A stretch of 55,666 nucleotides of DNA from a virus. The notes below the pieces were generated by a model. The model searched no databases. It saw only the letters and a list, made by a program, of their open reading frames with translations, and had not been told where the DNA came from. Positions 1,511 through 55,666 of this stretch are shown here, in pieces; the first letter of the stretch is position 1, and every line of letters begins with the position of its first letter. A program made the position numbers and the translations under genes. Location of the stretch: positions 1-55,666 of the IMG/VR virus record IMGVR_UViG_3300018080_000024. One strand, written 5' to 3'.

Positions 1511-4500
1511 GTGGCACTTCAGAAAATCGGCCTCGCAACGGTCCTCGATGACCAGGGCTTTGGGAAGGGCTCCGCGGCCTACAACAAGGCCATAAAGGGC
1601 ATGGAGGAAAACACCGACCGTGCCGCCAAGGGCATCGGGGCGGGGCTCAAGAAGATCGCGCAATTCGCCGCTGGCAACCTCCTTGCGGGCGGCATCCAAG
1701 GCCTCGCGCAGCAGACGATTGAGATGGTGAAGGCGGCGGGGCAGATCCCCGGCGTCGCCGGTGCTTTCGAAGGGTTGGGCGGCTCCATCGAGCGGATGCG
1801 CGAAGCATCACTGGGCATGGTGACCGACATCGAGCTGATGAAGACGTTCAACTCCGCCGCCCAGCTCGTCTCCACCGACTTTGCCCAGAAGCTGCCCGAC
1901 GCCATGTCCATGCTGTCGAAGGTGAGCGCGGCCACCGGCGAGGACATGGGCTTCATGCTCGACTCGCTGGTCAAGGGCGTTGGGCGTCTGAGCCCGATGA
2001 TCCTGGACAACCTCGGGATCCAGGTCAACCTCACCGAAGCCAACGAAGCCTACGCCGCCTCCATCGGCAAGAGCGCCAAGGACCTGACCAAGGCCGAGCA
2101 GCAGACCGCTGTGATGAACATGACCATGGAGAAGCTGGCTATCAACACGGCCTCCATGCCCAGCATCGCCGGTACCGCCGGACAACAGATGGCCAGCTTC
2201 GGCGTCCAGGTCCAGAACCTCCGCAACGACATTGGCGTGGCGCTCCTGCCGGTCATGTCGGCGGTCATGAGCGTTATGGCACAGCTGGCGTCGAAGGTGT
2301 TTCCGCTGCTCGTGAAAGCCGCGCAAGGGCTTTCGTCGGCGCTCATGGCGGTGTGGAATGCTGGCTCACGGTTTGGCGGCCTAGTCGCTGAGATAGGCGG
2401 GTTGCTCCCCGGCTTCGTCAAGGAGTTCGTTGCCCTCAAGGACTCCGGCTTCGATCCGCTGCGCCGGGCGTGGGTCGCGTTTATCAATGTCCTTGGTGGA
2501 GAGCGCTTCTTCCAGCTCAAGGCGCATTTTGACGCGGCGCGCAAGTCAGTCGAGGAGCTGATCAGCAAGGCGCTGAATCCGGTACAGACGGCCTTTGAGC
2601 TCCTCGAGGGCAAGGTGCCAACGCCGGTGCTGTTCCGCCTCGCCCAGGCCGTCTATCGCGTCCGAGACGCATTCATCAATGCGGTGGGCTTCGCCAAGGA
2701 GTTCATAGGCTCGCTCGACATCACCTTGCCGCAGCTCCCGGACCTGAGCACGCTGTTCACGCAAGGCGCGTCAGCGGGTGGCGGCCTCATTGACGCCATC
2801 ATTGGCAGCGACCCGGCGCAGCTGCTCATGGATCGGTTGAGCGGGCTGGCCGAGCCGATCATCACTGCCGTCACCACCACCTTCGAGGAGGTCAAGGCCG
2901 CGCTATCGTCCGGCGATGCGGGCGGCGTCCTGGCCGCGCTCTTTGGTGGGGCGCAGGAAATCGGACCGCTCATCGCCGGACTGAAGCCCAAGCTCATCGG
3001 CGTGGCTTTTGAGCTAGCAGACAGCCTCGCCGTGGCGCTAGCTGAGGCGTTTCCCGACCTGGCCCCGACCATCGAGGAGTTCATACGTCCGGCGCTAGAC
3101 ATCGGCAAGCGCCTCGCCGGACTGTTCTTTGACGCCCAAAAGCTCGTCAAGGGCGCCGTCATGAAGATCGGCGAGAGCATCGGCGGCACGCTGCTCGAGA
3201 GCCTCCCCGACGTCATGAACATTCTCGGGAAACTGGGGACGCTGTTCGAGTCCACCTTCCGCTCCTTGCTCCCCGTCGTCACCACTGCCATCACCACCAT
3301 CGGCAGCATATTCGAGCGCGTGTTCCCCGTCGTTCTCAGCACCGTCCAGCGCGTCATCCCCGTAGTCCAGAGCATCATCGAGAACATGGCCCCCGTCGTG
3401 GTGAAGGCCATCCAGATCGTCGGCAACATCTTTGAGAAGGTCGTGCCCTTCGCCATGGACCTGATTGCTCGCATGGCGGAGTTCATCGGCTCTAAGATGC
3501 CCCAGATCGCAGCCATCATCACTGCGGCGCTCGAAGCCATCAAGATCGTCTTTGATACGGTTTGGCCCGCCGTCCAGGTCATCGTCGAGGTCGCGTGGAC
3601 GGCGATCCAGAGCCTCATCAGCGGCGCTCTCAACATCATCCAGCACATCATCAATACCGTGCTCGCCGTCCTCCAAGGCGATTGGGACGCAGCGTGGCAG
3701 GCGATCAAGCAGGTTCCGGGCGAGGTGCTCACGGCGGTCGCGGGCGTGCTGGGCGGCATCCTGGACGGCATCCTCAAGATATTCGGGACCAACAAAGAGG
3801 ACCTGTGGACGACCATCACCGAGACATGGGAAGGGCTCAAGAGCAAGATCGAGACCAAGGCCGGTGAAATCGTCTCTGCGATCACCACCAAAGTGGCGGA
3901 GTGGACGAAGCCGGTACGGAACCTAATCGCGACGTTCAAAGGGCTAGGCGAGGACATCATGGGCGGCCTGAAGGCGGGACTGGAGGCCGCATGGAGCAAC
4001 GTTGAGCAGGTGTTCACCAAGCTCATTGAGCTCCTCCCCGCGTGGGCACAGAAGTTGCTGAAATCGGAGTCGCCCTCGCAGGTGTTCTGGGACATCGGTG
4101 CGGACATCATGGAGGGGCTCGCCAACGGCATGAGCGACAGCGAGGCTAAGGTCCTCAAGATCATCGCCGATGCCGTTGAGGATTTCATCGAGGCGTTCGA
4201 TCAGTTTGTGCGCACGATTCAGCTAGCCCAAGACATGAGTATCGAGCCGGACAGCTTCTTTTCGTTGCAATGGCTAGAGAACTTCGCCGGGGCCATCACC
4301 TCCATCTTGGAGGAGGTCAAAAACGCCCTCGCGGCCTACAAAGAGGGCGACATCAAGCGCTGGAAGGGCAAGCTCAGTGAGCTCGTTGGCGTGATAGAGG
4401 CGCTGGCAAGCAGCATGGAGGCCATCGCCAAGATCACCGGCAATCTAGACCTCGACGCGAACGTATTCGACGAGGCATTTTTCACTGTCACGCTGTCCGG

Positions 4501-7042
4501 CCTACGCGACGATCTGGCACGTGTGGCTGGCATTCTTGCCGAGCTGACCACCACCGTCACTAACGAAACAGCGAAGGCGCAGGCGGAGTTCTGGGCTGCC
4601 ACAAACGCGCTCGTGACGAACTTTGTCGCCGGTGCCGAGGCATTAAGCCAGCTGGTCAGTCTGGACCTCGGCGTCGAGATGGAGGGCGGCTGGGAGGCAT
4701 TCGAGTCAGCGTTGCTACAGACAAAAGAGGATCTGGAGCGCGTCGCGGGCATGCTAGACGACCTGGCCACTACCACTGACACCAAGGCCACGGCAGCCGC
4801 TGGAGAATGGTACAACGCCATACAGGGCGCGATATCTGGGTTCCTCACAGCATTCGAAGGACTCAAAAGGCTCAGCGAGGTAGCGTGGGTCAGGCCATCG
4901 CAAGTGGAATGGCTCACCATGCAATTATCAATCCGTGCCATGAACCTATATCTAGAGGCCTTGGCTCCACTTTTGGATGCGGGCACAGAGGCGCTGACGG
5001 CCATCGTTACAAATAGTGCGGCATTCTATGGTGCCATCGCAGATGCCGTCTCCGGGTTCATCGCGGCATTTCAAGGGCTCTACAACCTGACCACAGCATC
5101 CTGGATGGGGCCGACACGACTTCAATGGCTCACCATGCAGCTCACGATTCGGGCTATCAAGGTCAATCTAGAGGCGCTCGTCCCGCTTTTGGAGGCCGGG
5201 ACTGAGGCATCGACTACCATCGCCACGACTAGCGGGGCCTTTTACTCTGCTGTTGACCAGGCCATATCCGGCTTCTTGGAAGCTATGGATGAATTGAAGG
5301 CGCTCACTGAAGCCGCTTGGATGGGGCCAACGCGCCTGGAATGGCTCACCATAGAGCTCACGATCCAGGCTATCAAGGTCAATCTAGAGGCGCTCGTCCC
5401 GCTTTTGGAGGCCGGGACTGAGGCGTTGACTACCATCGCCACGACTAGCGGGACATTCTATGGCGCCGTAAGCGGAGTGATAGAGGGGTTCCTCAGCGCG
5501 TTCGCCAATCTGAAGGAGCTTGCGAAGGCGGCCTGGATGGGGCCAACGCGTCTGGAATGGTTCACCATGCAGCTCACAATCCAGGCTATCAAGATCAATC
5601 TAGAGGCGCTCGTGCCGCTATTGGAGGCGGGAACTGAGGAGCTAATCACGCTGGCCACGGCATCGGCCGGATTCTATGACGCGGCCAACGCGGTCATTGG
5701 CGGATTCCTGGCAGCGTTCCAGGCACTCAAAGAGTTCTACTCTACCGATTATGCGCTGCCCAACGTCTTAGAGCGCAGTGGATGGATCGACGACCTGCGA
5801 CTGGCCATCGAAGGACTAGCGACTGGCCTGTCGACACTCAGCCCTGATCTTGACGTCGATGCCGTATCTGCTGCTGCGGAGTTTTATTCCGACGTTCAAA
5901 CCATCATCGGGATCGTCAAGCCCGCCCTTGAGGCGCTGCGCGCTCTGGCTTTGTACGTGCCCTATCTGAGGCTGCCCGAGGCGATGGAAAACTTCAAAAC
6001 CGACTTGACCACGCTGGTGACCAAGCTCAGAGAGGTGGCCGACAGTTTCATGGGTACCGGAGAGGAGCCGACCGGACCGATGGAGGCCTCGGCGGCTATT
6101 GCTACAGCCATCGGGACAATGATCGGGATCGTAAAGCCTGCCATCGACGCCGTGAAAGCGCTGCTTGGGTATACGTCGTCGGTGAATCTACCCCAGGAGC
6201 TAGCTGATTTTGAGGCGGACCTACGGCTAGTGATTGGCAGCATCAAGAGGCTCGCCGACGATTATCGGGACAGCCTGATAAATGCAGAAGCCTTTGCAAC
6301 CACCGCTGGCACGATCATCGGCCTTATCGAGCCTACGTTACAGGCGCTTGCGGCACTAGTCAGTCAGAACAGCGAGGACTACGAGGCCGCTATGGACACG
6401 TTCGAGCGGACCGTCGGCGACATTATCAATACCATCAATCGCGTCCAGGGCGACATGTGGACATACGGCGTGCCACATGCGAAGGCGTTCGAGGCCGCAG
6501 CATTGGCAGTCAAGAATGCCATCGAGAAGGCGCTGAGCTACCTCAACGTGACCTTCGAGCCCTTCTTCACCCGCGGCGCATCCAGCCTAGGGCACCTCAT
6601 CGCGTCACTGGGTGAGCTGGAGGACAAGGGCGGGGGCGCTCTCAAACGATTCCGCAATGGCGCCGTGAGTGATTTCAATGACATCACGACGGCTGTCCGT
6701 GCGCTCATCACCGAGGTCGGAGCGTTGAATAGGGCGCTAGACGACGTTGATGTGCCGCCAGAGCTCGAAGGGCACAGCCCGCCACCGCTCGCTGACTGGA
6801 TGGGCCAAGTGGCGGATCAGGCCGAGAGAGCAGGCTCGGCCATGCGTCGCCTGATGATGCCCCAGCCGATGCTCATCCCCGCCCGAGTCTACAGGGGCGC
6901 AGGCGCTGGCGGGGGAACGACTACGAACAACAATGCGGCGGTGAACATCTACAACCCCTCGATGAGATCCGATGCGGATATGGTGGCGATTGAGTCGCGA
7001 ATCGAGCACACGGTTCTGCGCGCTTTGAGGAGGAAGGTCTGA
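1511..7042 (+). CDS. Tape measure protein
   Basis: At 1843 residues this is by far the longest gene, directly after the chaperones and before the tail tip genes. It starts with GTG after 'AGGGAG'. Residues 1-100 and 560-800 are rich in hydrophobic and small residues with long helical stretches, typical of tape measures that set tail length and pass through the host membrane. Residues about 1096-1406 contain a 72-residue tandem repeat built around 'W.GPTRLEW.T'. From the usual tape-measure scaling of about 0.15 nm per residue, the tail would be near 270-280 nm, which is inference. Confidence 0.93.
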   Translation: MALQKIGLATVLDDQGFGKGSAAYNKAIKGMEENTDRAAKGIGAGLKKIAQFAAGNLLAGGIQGLAQQTIEMVKAAGQIPGVAGAFEGLGGSIERMREASLGMVTDIELMKTFNSAAQLVSTDFAQKLPDAMSMLSKVSAATGEDMGFMLDSLVKGVGRLSPMILDNLGIQVNLTEANEAYAASIGKSAKDLTKAEQQTAVMNMTMEKLAINTASMPSIAGTAGQQMASFGVQVQNLRNDIGVALLPVMSAVMSVMAQLASKVFPLLVKAAQGLSSALMAVWNAGSRFGGLVAEIGGLLPGFVKEFVALKDSGFDPLRRAWVAFINVLGGERFFQLKAHFDAARKSVEELISKALNPVQTAFELLEGKVPTPVLFRLAQAVYRVRDAFINAVGFAKEFIGSLDITLPQLPDLSTLFTQGASAGGGLIDAIIGSDPAQLLMDRLSGLAEPIITAVTTTFEEVKAALSSGDAGGVLAALFGGAQEIGPLIAGLKPKLIGVAFELADSLAVALAEAFPDLAPTIEEFIRPALDIGKRLAGLFFDAQKLVKGAVMKIGESIGGTLLESLPDVMNILGKLGTLFESTFRSLLPVVTTAITTIGSIFERVFPVVLSTVQRVIPVVQSIIENMAPVVVKAIQIVGNIFEKVVPFAMDLIARMAEFIGSKMPQIAAIITAALEAIKIVFDTVWPAVQVIVEVAWTAIQSLISGALNIIQHIINTVLAVLQGDWDAAWQAIKQVPGEVLTAVAGVLGGILDGILKIFGTNKEDLWTTITETWEGLKSKIETKAGEIVSAITTKVAEWTKPVRNLIATFKGLGEDIMGGLKAGLEAAWSNVEQVFTKLIELLPAWAQKLLKSESPSQVFWDIGADIMEGLANGMSDSEAKVLKIIADAVEDFIEAFDQFVRTIQLAQDMSIEPDSFFSLQWLENFAGAITSILEEVKNALAAYKEGDIKRWKGKLSELVGVIEALASSMEAIAKITGNLDLDANVFDEAFFTVTLSGLRDDLARVAGILAELTTTVTNETAKAQAEFWAATNALVTNFVAGAEALSQLVSLDLGVEMEGGWEAFESALLQTKEDLERVAGMLDDLATTTDTKATAAAGEWYNAIQGAISGFLTAFEGLKRLSEVAWVRPSQVEWLTMQLSIRAMNLYLEALAPLLDAGTEALTAIVTNSAAFYGAIADAVSGFIAAFQGLYNLTTASWMGPTRLQWLTMQLTIRAIKVNLEALVPLLEAGTEASTTIATTSGAFYSAVDQAISGFLEAMDELKALTEAAWMGPTRLEWLTIELTIQAIKVNLEALVPLLEAGTEALTTIATTSGTFYGAVSGVIEGFLSAFANLKELAKAAWMGPTRLEWFTMQLTIQAIKINLEALVPLLEAGTEELITLATASAGFYDAANAVIGGFLAAFQALKEFYSTDYALPNVLERSGWIDDLRLAIEGLATGLSTLSPDLDVDAVSAAAEFYSDVQTIIGIVKPALEALRALALYVPYLRLPEAMENFKTDLTTLVTKLREVADSFMGTGEEPTGPMEASAAIATAIGTMIGIVKPAIDAVKALLGYTSSVNLPQELADFEADLRLVIGSIKRLADDYRDSLINAEAFATTAGTIIGLIEPTLQALAALVSQNSEDYEAAMDTFERTVGDIINTINRVQGDMWTYGVPHAKAFEAAALAVKNAIEKALSYLNVTFEPFFTRGASSLGHLIASLGELEDKGGGALKRFRNGAVSDFNDITTAVRALITEVGALNRALDDVDVPPELEGHSPPPLADWMGQVADQAERAGSAMRRLMMPQPMLIPARVYRGAGAGGGTTTNNNAAVNIYNPSMRSDADMVAIESRIEHTVLRALRRKV
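4860..5730 (+). repeat. 216-bp tandem repeats inside tape measure gene
   Basis: The string GG[CT]TCACCAT recurs at 4911, 5127, 5343 and 5559, exactly 216 bp (72 codons) apart, and the flanking DNA is also closely similar. Each unit encodes a Trp-rich turn followed by a long helix with 'NLEALVPLLEAGTE'. Expansion or contraction of this array would change tail length in steps of 72 residues. Confidence 0.9.
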
Positions 7043-12313: not shown

Positions 12314-12323
12314 GGGCGGAATC

Positions 12324-12388
12324 TTTACGCAAAATTTACGCAATCTTTACGGATAGCTATAGACGTAGGCGGGAAACTATGCTATAAT
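12324..12388 (+). promoter_or_regulatory. Cassette promoter 1 with three phased TTTACG boxes
   Basis: TTTACG occurs at 12324, 12335 and 12346, exactly 11 bp apart, so all three boxes lie on the same face of the helix. They are followed by -35 TAGACG (12360-12365), a 17-bp spacer and -10 TATAAT (12383-12388). The same arrangement occurs at 14022, 19530 and 41573. The phased boxes are probably an activator or repressor operator, which is inference. Confidence 0.88.
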
Positions 12389-12394
12389 ATCGTC

Positions 12395-12456
12395 GTAAGG
12401 TTAAGGACGGGGCGGCGATAGGGACTGCCCCCAGACACCCGAAGGAGACGAACGAA
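12395..12456 (+). promoter_or_regulatory. Conserved hairpin leader, cassette 1
   Basis: The 5' leader 'GTCGTAAGGTTAAGGACGG' and what follows is shared by all four cassettes. It can fold GGGGCGG (12409-12415) with CTGCCCC (12425-12431) around a 9-nt loop. The other copies change both arms (CCACCCC in two, GGG-AA-CGG with CCGCCCC in one) yet keep most pairs. It ends in GAAGGAGACGAACGAA before the ATG. A possible role is translation control or antitermination. Confidence 0.7.
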
Positions 12457-13197: not shown

Positions 13198-14007
13198 ATG
13201 TCCAAGTACACGGTCAAGCAGTTAGCAGATCGCATCGCTGATGGCGCGGAGCAGTTGGTACAGGATGGTGCGTGGGACGAGTACCTGAAATTCATCTCGC
13301 GATTCCCCGGCTACAGCTTCGGGAACCTCATGCTCATCTACACCGCCCGGCCCGATGCATCGCGTGTCGCCGGATACCGCACGTGGCAGAAGATGGGCCG
13401 CCAGGTTCGCAAGGGTGAGAAGGGCATCGCGATCTTGGCCCCGCACCAGTGGAAGCGCAAGGACGAGGATGACGACCAAGACGTCTCGCGGCGGACCGGC
13501 GTCGGATTCCACGTCACCTATGTCCGGGACGTGAGCCAAACCGACGGCGACCCATTGCCTGAGATTGCTCCGCCGTTGAGCGGCGATGACCCCAACGGGA
13601 TCCTGGGCCAGGTCCTAGGTGCCATCAAGCGCCGTGGCCTAGTCGTCGAGTTCACCGACGAGATGGTCGCCGACGGGGCTACGAACGGGCGCACCGTCCG
13701 CCTCCACACGGAGCGGGCCGCAACGCACCAGGTCGCCGTCGCGCTCCATGAACTTGCTCACGTCATCCTCGGCCACACGTCCAATCGTCGTGATGTGCCT
13801 CAGGCAGCGATGGAGTGGGAGGCCGAGTCGGTGTCCTACGTCGTCTGCGAGCGGCTGGGGATAGACTCCTCGACCAACGCGCTGGGCTATGTCCTGTCGT
13901 GGGCACATGGCGATCCCGAGGCGGTCCGTGAATACATCGCCGAGGAGGGCAACCTGATCCTCACCGTCGCCAGTGAGATCGTCGAGGCCGTTGCCGTAAA
14001 CGCCTAA
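13198..14007 (+). CDS. ardC: ArdC-like anti-restriction protein
   Basis: A 269-residue protein with the two ArdC domains. The N-terminal ssDNA-binding domain (residues about 1-100) shows 'GYSFGNLMLIY', 'VAGYRTWQKMGRQVRKGEKGI' and 'ILAP' signatures. The C-terminal metallopeptidase-like domain has HELAHVILGH with the first His near residue 184 and a downstream 'EWEAESVSYVVC' Glu that completes a Zn site. ArdC proteins protect incoming DNA from host restriction. It starts at ATG 13198 after AGGAGGTCAGC and sits between cassettes 1 and 2, so it likely acts early in infection. Confidence 0.88.
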   Translation: MSKYTVKQLADRIADGAEQLVQDGAWDEYLKFISRFPGYSFGNLMLIYTARPDASRVAGYRTWQKMGRQVRKGEKGIAILAPHQWKRKDEDDDQDVSRRTGVGFHVTYVRDVSQTDGDPLPEIAPPLSGDDPNGILGQVLGAIKRRGLVVEFTDEMVADGATNGRTVRLHTERAATHQVAVALHELAHVILGHTSNRRDVPQAAMEWEAESVSYVVCERLGIDSSTNALGYVLSWAHGDPEAVREYIAEEGNLILTVASEIVEAVAVNA

Positions 14008-14021
14008 GTGTCTCGGGAATC

Positions 14022-14086
14022 TTTACGCAAAATTTACGCTATCTTTACGGATAGCTATAGACGTAGGCGGGGAACTATGCTATAAT
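14022..14086 (+). promoter_or_regulatory. Cassette promoter 2 with three phased TTTACG boxes
   Basis: TTTACG boxes at 14022, 14033 and 14044 (11-bp period), -35 TAGACG at 14058-14063, 17-bp spacer, -10 TATAAT at 14081-14086. It is nearly identical to promoter 1 but has no terminator in front, only the remnant TCTCGGGAATC that follows the terminator in cassette 4. Transcription from ArdC may therefore read into it. Confidence 0.88.
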
Positions 14087-14092
14087 ATCGTC

Positions 14093-14153
14093 GTAAGGTT
14101 AAGGACGGGGCGGCGATAGGGACCACCCCCAGACACCCAGAGGAGACAGCAGA
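14093..14153 (+). promoter_or_regulatory. Conserved hairpin leader, cassette 2
   Basis: Same leader as in cassette 1, with the right arm of the hairpin changed to CCACCCC. It ends in CCCAGAGGAGACAGCAGA before ATG 14154, giving a good AGAGGAG ribosome site. Confidence 0.68.
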
Positions 14154-19520: not shown

Positions 19521-19529
19521 CCCGGGGAA

Positions 19530-19594
19530 TTTACGCAATCTTTACGGATAACCCACAGTTGGTGGTAGACTGAATCCTGATTATATGCTATAAT
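19530..19594 (+). promoter_or_regulatory. Cassette promoter 3 with two TTTACG boxes and diverged spacer
   Basis: TTTACG at 19530 and 19541 (11 bp), -35 TAGACT at 19566-19571, 17-bp spacer, -10 TATAAT at 19589-19594. The spacer sequence (GAATCCTGATTATATGC) and the stretch before the -35 differ from the other copies, while -35, -10 and their distance are kept. That is good evidence for a functional sigma70-type promoter. Confidence 0.9.
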
Positions 19595-19600
19595 ATCGTC

Positions 19601-19660
19601 GTAAGGTTAAGGACGGGGCGGCGATAGGGACCACCCCCAGACACCCAGAGGAGACGACAG
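19601..19660 (+). promoter_or_regulatory. Conserved hairpin leader, cassette 3
   Basis: Same leader as cassette 2, with GGGGCGG and CCACCCC arms, ending in CCCAGAGGAGACGACAG before ATG 19661. Confidence 0.68.
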
Positions 19661-20339: not shown

Positions 20340-20801
20340 ATGAACACCTATGCGATGTATCACAAGGCGGACACCGAGGACCTGCGAGTGCCCGAAGGCC
20401 AGGAGTGCCCCACGTGCGGGATCAGCCTGGCCGACGATCTAGAATGGACCGACCACAACACGGTCATCTGTGCCGGTTGCGGCACGGAGTACACGCCCGA
20501 GGCCGTACCGCCGCGAGGCATCAAGGCGCAAGAGGCCGCCTACGAGGCGCTGGACAAGATGGAGCGGTGGGGCGAGGCCGCCCTAGTACACTATGATGAT
20601 GGGAGCTTCGACGCCGTGCCCGCCGCGTACCTGACCGACGTCTCATGGTCGGGCAAGGGCCACGTGGACGGCTACGTCATCGTGTACGATCTAGTCGGCC
20701 TCAGCTGCGATGAGCGGAACTGGGGCGCGCTGTTCGAAATGGAGCGCCAATGGGCGGCTCGGCGTCTGGTAGAGCGGTGCTTGCGCTCAGCGATACACTA
20801 G
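20340..20801 (+). CDS. Zinc-ribbon protein, 153 residues
   Basis: N-terminal zinc ribbon with CPTC (about residues 23-26) and CAGC (about 43-46). It is followed by a helix and a beta domain with 'AALVHYDDGSFDAVPAAYLTDVSWSGKGHVDGYVIVYDL'. The ribosome site is GAGGAGGCAACG. Unknown function; last gene of the early small-gene region, directly before a terminator. Confidence 0.62.
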   Translation: MNTYAMYHKADTEDLRVPEGQECPTCGISLADDLEWTDHNTVICAGCGTEYTPEAVPPRGIKAQEAAYEALDKMERWGEAALVHYDDGSFDAVPAAYLTDVSWSGKGHVDGYVIVYDLVGLSCDERNWGALFEMERQWAARRLVERCLRSAIH

Positions 20802-20824: not shown

Positions 20825-20875
20825 GCTCCCGGGTCGCCTCGCTCAGAAAGAGGTGGCCCGGGGGGCTTTACGTTT
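20825..20875 (+). terminator. Intrinsic terminator before replication operon
   Basis: A long stem GCTCCCGGGTCGCCTC (20825-20840) with GAGGTGGCCCGGGGGGC (20850-20866), one bulge and three G-U pairs, then TTTACGTTT. The T-tract overlaps the -35 box of the next promoter. Confidence 0.78.
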
Positions 20876-20895
20876 GCGCGAAAATCGTATATAAT
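20867..20895 (+). promoter_or_regulatory. Promoter of the replication operon
   Basis: -35 TTTACG (20867-20872), 17-bp spacer, -10 TATAAT (20890-20895). The hexamer TTTACG here serves as the -35 itself, while in the cassettes the same hexamer forms upstream boxes. Start of transcription is expected near 20902. Confidence 0.85.
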
Positions 20896-21085: not shown

Positions 21086-21457
21086 ATGACGGACGCGAGT
21101 GAGCGCACTATACCGTTCCTGCCTGTGTGTGGCCGGATCGCAGGACGGGCGGCCAACGGGCTCTTTCTGTCGCAGTTCGTGTACTGGACCACGCACTACA
21201 AGACGGACGACGGCTGGATTTTCAAAACGCAGGCCGAATGGGAGGAAGAGACCACACTCACGGTCAACGAGCAAAACACAGCCCGCCGCGAGCTCAAGCG
21301 GCTGGGGGTTCTAGAGGAGCGCCGGGCAGGAGTCCCGGCGCGTTTGTATTATAGGCTGGACCGCGATCGGCTCGCGGAGCTGATCCGCCAAGATCAAGCG
21401 GAGCGCGAGCGACGGCTGGCCTGTGGTCGCTGCGAGGAGGCGTCGGATGCTGAGTGA
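21086..21457 (+). CDS. Replisome-organiser-like winged-helix protein
   Basis: A 123-residue protein with the pattern seen in N-terminal domains of phage replication proteins: 'GRAANGLFLSQFVYWTTHYKTDDGWIFKTQAEWEEETTLTVNEQNTARRELKRLGVLEERRAGVPARLYYRLD'. This is a winged helix with 'DGWI.KT..EW'. It starts at ATG 21086 after GGGAGGATCGCGACG and overlaps the next gene. Likely binds the origin together with the next protein. The C-terminus ends with a CGRC pair. Confidence 0.72.
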   Translation: MTDASERTIPFLPVCGRIAGRAANGLFLSQFVYWTTHYKTDDGWIFKTQAEWEEETTLTVNEQNTARRELKRLGVLEERRAGVPARLYYRLDRDRLAELIRQDQAERERRLACGRCEEASDAE

Positions 21458-22322
21458 AGGCTCCACCAAGCTCCTACAGACCTGGACCTTTGCGCAGCTC
21501 CCCGCTGCTGCCATCGTGGACCCCGAGCTGTCGTCGAGCGGGTTGCGCCTGCTCGCCTATATGTGCTGGAGACGGGGCCAGGATGGGACCATGTGGGCGT
21601 CCGTCGGGAGCATGGCCCAGGACCTCTCCGTGACGGATCAGAGCATTAGGAATTGGGGCCGCGAGCTCGTGGCGCGCGGCTACCTAGAAATTGATGCGCG
21701 CGAAGGACAGACGAATATCTATCGGCTCACGCGACGAGCAGCGGTTGGGAACATTATCAATGAGGGCGCCGCGGGGGGTACAACGTCGTTGGCCGAAGGG
21801 GGTCAAAAACTTTTGAAGGGGGGGGTCAAAGAATCTTTGGAGGGGGGGTCAAAAACTTTTGAGGCAAACGATATGCAAAGAACGACATGCAATAACGAAA
21901 CCTCCCCTACGGGGGCTACGCCCGAGCCTTCTGAGAGCATGATCGTACCTCAGAGCTACGACGCGTGGTGTGACGCGCTTGCGCAGACCAAGAACCCGTG
22001 CGCGGTGATGAAGTACATGATCGAGAGCCTGTACCCAGGCCGAGCTCCTCCGGACTATTCACGTATTGGCGGGGCGATGCGGACGACGGGCTCATGGCGC
22101 AACCTAGCGATGCGGGTATGGACGCTGGCAGCGCGACCGCCAGCGGGGGAGCTACTGGACTATATCCAGGCGGAGGTGTCACGCGCGCGTGAGGATCGGC
22201 GCAAAGGGCGGCGCAAGGGCGGCAATGGATCCGCCCCGGACCCGACGGACCTCAACAACCCGGACGTGTTGGCGGCTGCTATGAAGCGGTCAAAGGAGGC
22301 GGCGCATCAGCAAACGGCTTGA
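21447..22322 (+). CDS. Replication initiator (lambda O-like role) with internal iterons
   Basis: A 291-residue protein from ATG 21447, overlapping the previous stop. Residues 25-95 form a winged helix ('SSSGLRLLAYMCWRRGQDGTMWASVGSMAQDLSVTDQSIRNWGRELVARGYLEI'). A low-complexity linker (residues about 115-145) is encoded by three DNA iterons at 21803-21862. The C-terminal half has a helical domain and a basic tail 'RREDRRKGRRKGGNG'-like patch. A helicase loader gene follows, the order of lambda O and P. Origin binding is inferred. Confidence 0.72.
   Translation: MLSEGSTKLLQTWTFAQLPAAAIVDPELSSSGLRLLAYMCWRRGQDGTMWASVGSMAQDLSVTDQSIRNWGRELVARGYLEIDAREGQTNIYRLTRRAAVGNIINEGAAGGTTSLAEGGQKLLKGGVKESLEGGSKTFEANDMQRTTCNNETSPTGATPEPSESMIVPQSYDAWCDALAQTKNPCAVMKYMIESLYPGRAPPDYSRIGGAMRTTGSWRNLAMRVWTLAARPPAGELLDYIQAEVSRAREDRRKGRRKGGNGSAPDPTDLNNPDVLAAAMKRSKEAAHQQTA
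21799..21865 (+). repeat. Three 23-bp iterons, candidate replication origin
   Basis: Palindromic cores TCAAAAACTTTTGA (21803), TCAAAGAATCTTTGGA (21826) and TCAAAAACTTTTGA (21849) are spaced exactly 23 bp apart and separated by G-tracts. Because 23 is not a multiple of 3, each copy is read in a different frame ('QKLLKG', 'VKESLE', 'SKTFEA'), so DNA rather than protein is conserved. Lambda also has its origin iterons inside the initiator gene. Confidence 0.8.
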
Positions 22323-22403: not shown

Positions 22404-23234
22404 ATGACCGACACTGCGCATAGCTATCGAGGACAACCGCCATGGTGGTCCGCTGCCGTGGCCTGGAGCCAAGAGAACATACGGAACTGTTCATGCGGCG
22501 TGAATGCGGACGGGACGCCGCGAGGGTTTGTGCGGGGCCGGTTTGAGGCCGGCCATCAACTGTTCGGCAAGAGCATCCCGTGTGTGTGTGCTCTAGATCG
22601 TTTTGCGCGATCCAAGGCCGAACGCCTGCGAGCGCTGAGCGGCATGAGCATCAGCGATTTCAACGCCTATCGGTTCACGACGTTTGGCCGCGACCAGGCC
22701 ATCAACGGAACCAGGCTCGCCGACGCCGACTTCCGGGCGCATCTGGACCACGTGGTGGAGCGGTGTATGGCCTACGCCCAGCGCCCCACCGATGGGTTCA
22801 TGATCCTCGTGGGGCCATACGGCGCAGGGAAAACGCACTTGGCCAAGGCCATCGTCAACGCGTGGATGGGCGGCGGCGGCGAGGTATACTTCAGCACCGT
22901 CCCGGACCTGTTGGACACCCTGCGCGAGGGCTACGACGTCGAGCGTGGCGGCGTGGCGCCGAGCTTCGAGCAGCGGCTAGAGTGGTTTCGCACCGTGGCG
23001 CTCTTGGTCCTGGACGATCTAGGCGCGCACCGGGCGACAGACTGGGCGGCTGAGAAACTTTTTCAGATTATCAATGACCGCTATGAGGCGCGCCGGGCGA
23101 CCGTCATCACCAGCAACCAGGACGTCCGCGAGAGCAGCGGGGGCATCGAGCCGCGCATTGCCTCGCGGCTGGCCGATGCGCGTCACGACTATCTAGTGTT
23201 GCCATGCGGAGACTATCGGAGGGGGGTGCGATGA
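22404..23234 (+). CDS. DnaC-like AAA+ helicase loader
   Basis: A 276-residue protein with Walker A 'GPYGAGKTHLA' (near residue 137), Walker B 'LLVLDDLGAH' (near 197), sensor 'VITSNQ' and an arginine finger region 'RIASRLADAR'. The N-terminal 70 residues have CSCG and CVC cysteines that may hold zinc. It loads the host replicative helicase onto the phage origin. It follows the initiator gene and is preceded by CACCCGAGGAGACGATC. Confidence 0.88.
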   Translation: MTDTAHSYRGQPPWWSAAVAWSQENIRNCSCGVNADGTPRGFVRGRFEAGHQLFGKSIPCVCALDRFARSKAERLRALSGMSISDFNAYRFTTFGRDQAINGTRLADADFRAHLDHVVERCMAYAQRPTDGFMILVGPYGAGKTHLAKAIVNAWMGGGGEVYFSTVPDLLDTLREGYDVERGGVAPSFEQRLEWFRTVALLVLDDLGAHRATDWAAEKLFQIINDRYEARRATVITSNQDVRESSGGIEPRIASRLADARHDYLVLPCGDYRRGVR

Positions 23235-41563: not shown

Positions 41564-41572
41564 TCGGGAATC

Positions 41573-41637
41573 TTTACGCAAAATTTACGCAATCTTTACG
41601 GATAGCTATAGACGTAGGTGGGAAACTATGCTATAAT
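41573..41637 (+). promoter_or_regulatory. Cassette promoter 4 with three phased TTTACG boxes
   Basis: TTTACG at 41573, 41584 and 41595, -35 TAGACG (41609-41614), 17-bp spacer, -10 TATAAT (41632-41637). Almost identical to promoters 1 and 2, although it lies in the head-gene operon about 27 kb away. Confidence 0.9.
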
Positions 41638-41643
41638 ATCGTC

Positions 41644-41704
41644 GTAAGGTTAAGGACGGGAACGGGGATAAGGACCGCCCCCAGACACGCAGAGGAGACG
41701 AACA
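41644..41704 (+). promoter_or_regulatory. Conserved hairpin leader, cassette 4
   Basis: Leader homologous to the others, but the hairpin arms differ (GGG-AA-CGG with CCGCCCC), keeping two helical segments. Ends with CAGAGGAGACGAACA before ATG 41705. Confidence 0.66.
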
Positions 41705-43367: not shown

Positions 43368-44402
43368 ATGCTGAGACACAGAGGCGGATACGCGTCAAAC
43401 GCAAACAAGCTCCGTCTGACCGCGACGACGGCAGGCGCAGGCCAGACGGTGACGCTACAACGGATCACCCACTCTCGTCCGTCAACAGTCCAGTGGGGCG
43501 ACGGGGCCGTCGACAGTCACGGCGCGGACTATACGGGGCCCTGGACGCACACGTATACCGATGCGGGGACGTACGAGGTCTGTGTCCACCATGCGGACCG
43601 GATCACCGGCGTGGACCTGCGCGACAGCAAGATCAGCGGACTCAACACCGTGCAGCTGCGGCGGTCGGTACTAACGCGGTTCTGGGCCACTGGTCTAGAC
43701 GCAACTACGGCCAATGTCATCAGGTCCGCCGACATGATCAACTGGCGACCGACGCTCTGGTATCTGTATTCGATGCCCGCGGGGGCGTACGACATCGACT
43801 CCGCGCACATGGTCGACTGGCGACCGACGCTCTGGTCTCTGCGCTCGATGCCCGCAGGGACGTACGACATCGACTCCGCGCACATGGTCGACTGGCGACC
43901 GTTGAGCTGGTATCTGTTTTTGATGCCCGCAGGGACGTACGACATCGACTCCGCCGACATGGTCGACTGGCGACCGACGAATTGGCGGTTGTACTCGATG
44001 CCCGCAGGGACGTACGACATCGACTCCGCCGACATGGTCGACTGGCGACCGCTGTACTTGTGGCTGTACTCGATGCCCGCGGCAGGATCGTCCTACGCGT
44101 TTGCGGCGACGTGCATGCGCAACTGGACGGGGGCGGAACTTATCTACTGCCAAGACCTCGGGCTGCTACAGGCCACGGTGGACGCGATTATCGCCGACGT
44201 CTGGGTGGGGCGCGCGGGGTATACGTACGCCACGCCAGAGCTCAATGTGGGCGGCACCAACGCGACGCCGACGGGCGTGTATCAGGACGGCTACCCGCTG
44301 CCGCTCACGGCGCTAGAGGCTGTGCACGATCTTGTCAACGACGACGATGCGGCGGGGATCAATACATGGTCGGTGACCTGGAATGGCGGTAGCGCACCAT
44401 GA
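43368..44402 (+). CDS. Repeat-containing surface protein, variable 25-residue modules
   Basis: A 344-residue protein. Residues about 35-75 look like a PKD-type Ig domain ('VQWGDGAVDSH', 'HTYTDAGTYEV'). Residues about 118-245 hold five 25-residue modules 'DWRP-(7 variable)-MPAGTYDIDSADMV'. The C-terminal 90 residues form another domain. Such BspA/LRR-like modules usually bind ligands. The protein is a good receptor-binding or decoration candidate. Confidence 0.68.
   Translation: MLRHRGGYASNANKLRLTATTAGAGQTVTLQRITHSRPSTVQWGDGAVDSHGADYTGPWTHTYTDAGTYEVCVHHADRITGVDLRDSKISGLNTVQLRRSVLTRFWATGLDATTANVIRSADMINWRPTLWYLYSMPAGAYDIDSAHMVDWRPTLWSLRSMPAGTYDIDSAHMVDWRPLSWYLFLMPAGTYDIDSADMVDWRPTNWRLYSMPAGTYDIDSADMVDWRPLYLWLYSMPAAGSSYAFAATCMRNWTGAELIYCQDLGLLQATVDAIIADVWVGRAGYTYATPELNVGGTNATPTGVYQDGYPLPLTALEAVHDLVNDDDAAGINTWSVTWNGGSAP
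43740..44085 (+). repeat. 75-bp repeats with a 21-bp hypervariable window
   Basis: CATGGTCGACTGGCGACC recurs at 43808, 43883, 43958 and 44033, exactly 75 bp apart, with a first, slightly different unit at 43733. About 54 bp per unit are nearly identical, while 21 bp after GACTGGCGACCG differ: TLWYLYS, TLWSLRS, LSWYLFL, TNWRLYS, LYLWLYS. The flanks being conserved even at silent sites points to gene conversion or recent expansion with selection on the window. Confidence 0.9.
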
Positions 44403-54449: not shown

Positions 54450-55666
54450 ATGACGGACCGACGACAGAATCAAACCGTCAAGGACGAATGGACCACGGTA
54501 TGGATTCAGCCCGATGGCCCCAACACCACCGTGTACCGGCTAGGCTGTGCGAACATCGACAGCGTGACCGATCCGCGAGGCTCGGTGGAGCGGACCAACT
54601 GCTACAACCCGGTCACCGGCAAGTACGAGGTGACCTCACGGCGCATCCAAGCGCCGGACGCCCCGACGCTGAGCGTCGAGGAGTTGACGCCAAAGATCCA
54701 GTCGTACATGGAGCGCGTCGTGGAGCGCGGGTGTCCGGCGGGGTTGTATGTGAACTTCACAAACTGCCCGCCCCGCGACACGTTCAACCACTATGACCGA
54801 TCCGAGGTGTACGAGGACTCCATCGCGACGCAGATCACGCTCAATCAGATCAGCAACCGCGAGTCAGGCCAGGACGTGATGGACAGTGTGGACTGGGACC
54901 TGTTCAAGCGACTGGCGATCTTTGAGCTCGGCAAGTATCGTCGCACCACCTCTAACGCGGACCCGCTTCGAGACATTGCCGGGTGCGGTGACGACGTTTG
55001 CGGGGACGGCTGCGGAGCGGCAGAGGAGCACTGTGACAACCTCTGGGCAGTCGGCAACGCCGATGGCGTCGGTGGTAACGCGCCGGTACTCTACTCTACC
55101 GACGGCGGCATCACCTGGGCGCAGACAGCGGCAGATCCGTTTGCAGCCGACGAGGACATCAACTCCGTCGTGTGCTTCCCCATCTCCGAGGGCACCTGGC
55201 GCGTCGTGGTCATGCGCGGCACCACGGATGCCGCGAACCCTGGCGAAGTGGCCTACAGTGACGATGGTGGCGCGACCTGGACCACGGCCAACCTCGGCGC
55301 GGTCAACGCCAACTTTGGCCTCCACAGTGGTGGCCTTTGTAACGTCGGCAAAGAGGTTTGGGCCGTTGACGATCAGGGCGACATCTACTACAGCAGCGAC
55401 GGGGCCGAGACATTCGCCGATCAGGTGAGCGGCAATGCAGTCGCGCTCCGTTACATCCGCATGATCGACCGCAAGGTTGGCGTCGCGGTGGGCGGGGCCA
55501 CTGGCGCGAGTCAGGTGTGCCTCTACACCGTCGACGGCGGCCTCCACTGGACGTCAAGCGGATTCACCAGCGGCCCCGGCGCGACGGTCATGGCGAACTG
55601 CGTGGCGGTGCTAGACGAGTCGCACTGGTTCGTCGGCTTTGAGAACGGGGATGTGTACTACACCCG
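54450..55666 (+). CDS. Tail tube protein fused to Asp-box beta-propeller (continues at 2-448)
   Basis: N-terminal and middle part of a 513-residue protein whose 3' end lies at the left edge of the window. Residues 1-170 fit a tail tube protein by size and by position before chaperones and tape measure. A Cys-rich hinge ('CGDDVCGDGCGAAEEHC', near residues 180-200) leads into a propeller with Asp-box motifs STDGGITW, SDDGGATW, SSDGAETF and TVDGGLHW in this part. If all copies in the tail carry it, the tube surface is covered by propellers. Confidence 0.78.
   Translation, partial: MTDRRQNQTVKDEWTTVWIQPDGPNTTVYRLGCANIDSVTDPRGSVERTNCYNPVTGKYEVTSRRIQAPDAPTLSVEELTPKIQSYMERVVERGCPAGLYVNFTNCPPRDTFNHYDRSEVYEDSIATQITLNQISNRESGQDVMDSVDWDLFKRLAIFELGKYRRTTSNADPLRDIAGCGDDVCGDGCGAAEEHCDNLWAVGNADGVGGNAPVLYSTDGGITWAQTAADPFAADEDINSVVCFPISEGTWRVVVMRGTTDAANPGEVAYSDDGGATWTTANLGAVNANFGLHSGGLCNVGKEVWAVDDQGDIYYSSDGAETFADQVSGNAVALRYIRMIDRKVGVAVGGATGASQVCLYTVDGGLHWTSSGFTSGPGATVMANCVAVLDESHWFVGFENGDVYYT
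55544..55666. repeat. Terminal direct repeat, right copy
   Basis: Exact copy of 1-123. See the left copy; the tail gene reads through this repeat in frame, so the two ends belong together. Confidence 0.95.

Follow-up and report, generated by a model that had tools for sequence, protein, structure and literature searches.

Gene organization of the locus

The window, by which we mean the whole stretch of 55,666 nucleotides analysed here, carries a replication initiator gene with a helicase-loader gene behind it and a second, shorter wHTH gene directly in front (Table 1). The initiator product, 291 amino acids long, matches the HTH_36 family (PF13730) with an E-value of 1.6e-7 and 31.5 bits against a curated cut-off of 25. 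It also matches two PHROG families of replication initiation (phrog_270, 4.4e-9; phrog_428, 1.1e-6) and the O-like phrog_391 (6.5e-5), in agreement with the role given to it in the initial annotation. Membership in the Pfam family Phage_rep_O is ruled out: the product has its match to HTH_36 instead and none to PF04492, which lambda O matches at 5.7e-36. In the structural model the wHTH is followed by a disordered segment at residues 97-170 (low confidence, mean pLDDT 44). No near relatives of the protein were found in IMG/VR and INPHARED, so that conservation of the repeats described below is not traceable within a lineage.

Table 1. Positions and properties of the features at the initiator locus
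Feature	Position	Strand	Description
Promoter-like site TTTACG-17-TATAAT	20867..20895	+	consensus match only; upstream of the wHTH-wHTH-loader run
Second short O-like wHTH gene, 123 aa	21086..21457	+	phrog_9773 replication initiation O-like, 1.3e-33
Replication initiator gene	21447..22322	+	wHTH at residues about 27-95, iteron-encoded linker about 117-140, helical C-terminal part
Iteron 1	21798..21816	+	GGGGG TCAAAA-AC-TTTTGA
Iteron 2	21821..21841	+	GGGGG T CAAAGA-A-TCTTTG GA; diverged, dyad symmetry kept
Iteron 3	21844..21862	+	GGGGG TCAAAA-AC-TTTTGA; same sequence as iteron 1
Candidate unwinding element	21863..21904	+	AT 0.57-0.60 vs 0.38 for the gene; AACGAYATGCAA direct repeats
Helicase-loader gene, DnaC/IstB-type AAA+	22404..23234	+	Walker A GPYGAGKT; PF01695 1e-18; phrog_50 DnaC-like loader 4e-38

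The proposed identity of the loader gene is likewise borne out by its domain and PHROG matches, and its product also matches PDB chains of DnaC, IstB and DnaI; close relatives of this loader were absent from IMG/VR. The 23429 protein has one relative (38%), in a record without an HTH_36 gene.

The short upstream gene overlaps the start of the initiator gene by 11 nt. Its homologues, such as those of Vibrio phage X29 and Acinetobacter phage TCUAN1, are full initiators; in these two phages the homologue adjoins a DnaC- or DnaB-type gene. The repeat test was negative for iterons within the upstream gene itself. The initiator slot of the window thus holds two wHTH genes, the first of which is truncated where its relatives have iterons. 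Such a tandem of an O-like wHTH and an HTH_36 initiator possibly reflects initiator replacement or the presence of a second regulator. Neither this gene nor the stretch of AT-rich repeats that follows the iterons figured in the initial annotation.

The record ends in an exact 123-bp terminal direct repeat (1-123 and 55544-55666), because of which it is probably a complete circular map of about 55,543 bp. It has no close relatives, and its terminase shares about 40% identity with terminases from Actinoplanes and Streptomyces phages. Away from the initiator locus, a near-identical module of roughly 130 bp occurs four times (12319-12450, 14018-14150, 19526-19660 and 41569-41700), each with TATGCTATAATATCGTCGTAAGGTTAAGGACGGGGCGGCGATAGGGAC preceded by two to three tandem copies of an 11-bp TTTACGC repeat; together they look like the promoters of a phage-wide regulon with an activator acting on the 11-bp direct repeats. 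The antirestriction gene (phrog_7245, 13198-14007) is flanked by two such modules, the one at 12319 upstream and the one at 14018 close behind it. Longer tandem repeats are found in two other reading frames: a 75-bp unit in 4.7 copies (43725-44080), in frame within the ORF at 43368-44402, and a 216-bp unit in 2.5 copies (5100-5639) within the tape-measure gene (1511-7042).

Dyad repeats within the initiator gene

The array of three dyad repeats spans 21798-21866, with a spacing of 23 and 23 bp. It starts at nt 352 of the initiator gene, 112 nt past the end of the HTH, a distance that mostly amounts to 60-175 nt in relatives. Iterons 1 and 3 are identical across 19 nt, and iteron 2 is a 6+6 dyad in which both arms have been altered together. 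The initial annotation had described three palindromic TCAAA...TTTGA cores placed 23 bp apart; the spacing and the dyad symmetry hold for all three copies, but that core is present only in copies 1 and 3. The G-tracts reported around the cores are real: GGGGG heads each iteron, and three G-runs of 5-8 flank the cores. As had also been noted, one DNA word is read in three frames, GGGGTCAAA falling in codon frames 1, 0 and 2 to give GGQKLLK, GGVKESLE and GGSKTFE in the order of the iterons.

With the protein held fixed, none of 1000 synonymous resamplings reached the observed three-copy phased score of 30 (maximum 26), nor did any of 1000 within-gene codon permutations (maximum 27), and no second site in the 55.7-kb window scores 30 at lags of 15-30 bp. 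A coarser statistic that only counts copies is borderline for the window gene alone (p about 0.06) and gives p 0.017 for lambda O. The claim that selection at the iterons acts on DNA rather than on codons is supported, because the array exceeds these synonymous-codon controls and because the spacings of such arrays, here and elsewhere, are often not multiples of three. The stretch of protein encoded by the repeats is predicted by a low-confidence single-sequence model to be a disordered linker, which would explain the tolerance of three reading frames.

AT-rich flank and GC skew

Immediately 3' of the array, AACGAYATGCAA occurs twice, 14 bp apart (21867 and 21881), with a partial third copy at 21894. 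This repeat is not significant in the window gene alone (p 0.18) and is significant for the class of genes described below. Within 20-25 kb, the 40-mer with the highest AT content starts at 21849 and so overlaps iteron 3 and the stretch beyond.

A minimum of cumulative GC skew had been expected near 21.8 kb. The raw curve has no minimum there; after linear detrending a minimum appears at 20,543, on a broad trough of 15-23 kb, and the range of the detrended curve is 601 vs 290 for permuted blocks (0/2000). The skew is thus compatible with the origin model without being precise, and as ambiguous, weak evidence it is only loosely supportive.

In-gene arrays in other initiator genes

We drew an iteron-blind sample, chosen by the HTH_36 domain only, of 89 initiator-size genes from about 500 Pseudomonadota and Bacillota genomes. 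A gene was counted as positive if it contained at least three in-gene repeats with p <= 0.05 against synonymous permutation (40 permutations); this per-gene threshold is uncorrected, so the false-positive rate is set by the control ORFs. Repeats were significant in 28 of the 89 HTH_36 genes vs 2 of 110 neighbouring ORFs (Fisher 1.9e-9), the 28 being not all independent, with some close relatives among them (e.g. L125, L171, L172), and a few (e.g. L201, L209, L221) being unlike phased dyad arrays. About two thirds of the 89 genes had no significant array by the same test, and none was found in TP901-1 Rep, whose HTH_36 match lies just under the cut-off.

Array spacing falls within 20-25 bp in 62 of 90 cases, with a peak at 21-24 bp, and 25 of these 62 spacings are not divisible by three. 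In unrelated HTH_36 and O-like initiator genes, dyad arrays spaced at 21-24 bp lie straight after the wHTH; among the O-like genes, that of CF63a has six copies at exactly 23 bp and TCUAN1 five at exactly 22 bp. The sequences of the iterons vary by lineage (e.g. GTGAATCTCCTGCACC, GTAGGTTCACACAGAACCTAC, GTGTCCGGAAATCGGACAC), and relatives retain the dyads and their spacing while the G content of the flanks varies. The DNA 3' of the arrays is AT-rich for its gene (mean percentile 0.956 vs 0.851 for random anchors, 0/300) and contains more 10-17-bp direct repeats than synonymous shuffles do (8.92 vs 7.32, sd 0.14). Among these repeats GAACC- and AATACC-like types are frequent, and the O-like family has CAGAGATTAC-like ones: the O-like genes of X29, TCUAN1, sal3 and CF63a (L231-L234) share conserved repeats of this type, 10-14 bp long, after their iterons, though the iterons differ. 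We searched open-licence papers for an account of in-gene iterons as a property common to HTH_36 initiators and found none.

Two scans that used only the DNA pattern of GGGGTCAAA-type arrays yielded 24 viral loci, and in 8 of them the array lies inside an initiator-type wHTH gene: five pass the HTH_36 cut-off (L002, L008, L010, L011, L018), two are sub-threshold (L024, L025) and one is O-like by eye (L020). An iteron finder allowing two mismatches added spurious copies, and the counts were made without it. The sharing of GGGGTCAAA with other viral initiators is no evidence of kinship or of common descent of recognition, because HTH similarity is low (0.10-0.24 in the pairs listed) and the loci were picked for the motif. 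Across 29 HTH-iteron pairs, similar iterons occur mainly among closely related HTHs, and a recognition code of wider reach was not detected: the correlation over all pairs (r 0.31) vanishes below 50% HTH similarity.

In bacterial genomes, GGGGTCAAA arrays could not be retained as initiator genes, since by eye, among the matches listed, they are mostly simple tandem repeats and apparent insertion-sequence ends. Several loci (L028, L035, L036, L042, L047, L048, L081 and others) have GGGGTCAAA arrays, spaced at about 20-30 bp, that lie at contig ends or are present in many copies and look like insertion-sequence ends, possibly of the IS21 family. That family pairs IstA with the AAA+ protein IstB, which is akin to the loader of the window.

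Interpretation and alternative explanations

What could be the function of a repeat array hidden in the coding sequence of an initiator? The wHTH, the dyad iterons and their phasing, the selection at the DNA level, the AT-rich flank, the neighbouring loader and a layout common to lambda and many unrelated initiator genes can all be read in the sequence. They lead us to consider it probable, with good confidence, that the locus is a lambda-type replication origin embedded in the initiator gene and bound by that gene's own wHTH. The initiator would use its N-terminal wHTH to bind, probably as a dimer, the three dyad iterons in its own gene, with one dimer for every two helical turns of the array. 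The resulting nucleoprotein complex would strain the adjacent AT-rich repeats and promote their opening, after which the AAA+ loader from the next gene would deliver a host DnaB-type helicase to the opened stretch. Transcription running rightward from the promoter-like site would cross the iterons, as that from lambda pR does. We also infer that the initiator, rather than the upstream O-like protein, is the likely binder and that the array probably serves as the main origin.

The main binder of the dyads might instead be the O-like wHTH protein encoded upstream, acting as initiator or as competing regulator, with the product of the longer gene in another role. Of the two proteins, the upstream one matches an O-like family more strongly, and its homologues occupy the initiator position ahead of a DnaC- or DnaB-type gene and have 22-23-bp in-gene arrays. 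It lacks a linker, a C-terminal part and an array of its own, however, and elsewhere the arrays sit in the gene encoding the wHTH directly 5' of them, as is the case for the longer gene; we consider such a division of roles unlikely. Since a wHTH protein could, by binding dyad repeats, repress transcription across the gene, and a promoter-like site is present upstream, one might also take the repeats for operator sites of autoregulation, copy number or incompatibility and not for the origin itself. This seems to us decidedly unlikely, as the repeats are found some 350 nt past the start of the gene, next to AT-rich repeats and a loader gene, which is the position of the origin in lambda and SPP1 (PMC5043065, PMC6316719).

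Neutral tandem duplication could also have produced a low-complexity Gly/Lys linker with no function at the DNA level. The predicted disorder of the encoded stretch fits this idea, as does the identity of copies 1 and 3, which recent duplication or conversion would be expected to leave. Yet the 23-bp unit breaks the frame, the synonymous controls stand at 0/1000, copy 2 has diverged with compensating arms, and the same position and spacing recur in unrelated genes against 2/110 controls, all of which makes a purely neutral origin very improbable. It is more improbable still that a G-quadruplex formed by the three runs of 5-8 G around the cores, and not the dyads, is the functional element: its loops would be about 15 nt long, relatives keep the dyads and spacing with a variable G content in the flanks, and the z-score of the single-strand fold is only -1.2.

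An embedded origin bound by its own initiator would mean that the likely origin of a phage without close relatives is placed to within about 110 bp, which makes a minimal replicon testable. The wider frequency of the in-gene layout is a more useful result than the single locus. A phased array in about a third of the sampled HTH_36 initiator-size genes vs 2% of their neighbours provides a simple sequence rule for finding phage and prophage origins, and the survey supplies many natural pairs of a DNA-binding domain and a target site. We tentatively suggest, as a conjecture slightly more likely to fail than to hold, that self-addressed in-gene origins are a common and under-described default of HTH_36 and O-like phage initiators across phyla. 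These origins would combine fast-diverging dyad iterons of 21-24 bp with slower-changing AT-rich direct repeats of 10-17 bp (GAACC-, AATACC- or CAGAGATTAC-like), the latter maybe read in single-stranded form by a second factor, and initiator sets such as the tandem wHTH pair may arise by one unit invading another.

Comparison with known systems

As a positive control, we applied the same script to the lambda O gene. Lambda O dimers bind iterons that are inverted repeats of 19 bp and adjoin a 40-bp A+T-rich opening region (PMC5043065; PMC7466680). The annotated iterons of the lambda record are spaced 20/24/23 bp from nt 349 of O, the 40 nt after them have an AT content of 0.78 vs 0.52, and P is next. 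The likeness to the lambda origin drawn in the initial annotation is thus well founded: the window has phased in-gene dyads about two helical turns apart, an adjoining A+T-rich region of about 40 bp and an adjacent loader gene, and the dyads of both phages follow an N-terminal DNA-binding domain at almost the same point of initiators of similar length (299 aa in lambda O). The two systems differ in that O belongs to Phage_rep_O and the window initiator to HTH_36, in the sequence and number of the iterons (four in lambda, three in the window), and in the loader, which is of the AAA+ DnaC/IstB type in the window whereas lambda P is of another kind. The window also has G-tract flanks and a weaker AT-richness.

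In SPP1, the direct repeats of oriL that gp38 binds lie inside gene 38 and next to the DUE (PMC6316719). By this published description, SPP1 oriL (gene 38, gp38/gp39) resembles the window in having origin repeats in the initiator gene, an AT-rich DUE and a loader gene.

The HTH_36 initiator genes of Pseudomonadota and Bacillota, which probably belong to prophages, share with the window the wHTH, the 21-24-bp dyad arrays and the AT-rich repeats, but their iteron sequences vary from lineage to lineage and none of them is a close relative of the window gene. The O-like initiators of phrog_9773 (Vibrio phage X29, Acinetobacter TCUAN1, Pseudomonas CF63a) likewise have in-gene repeats after the wHTH, in arrays of 22-23 bp in TCUAN1, CF63a and sal3, together with AT-rich CAGAGATTAC-like repeats; they differ from the window initiator in wHTH family and in iterons, and the window retains a truncated member of their family upstream. 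The arrangement is not unique, because about one in three of the comparable genes from two bacterial phyla has the same hidden layout; the locus adds a further case to a known arrangement and does not represent a new kind of system.
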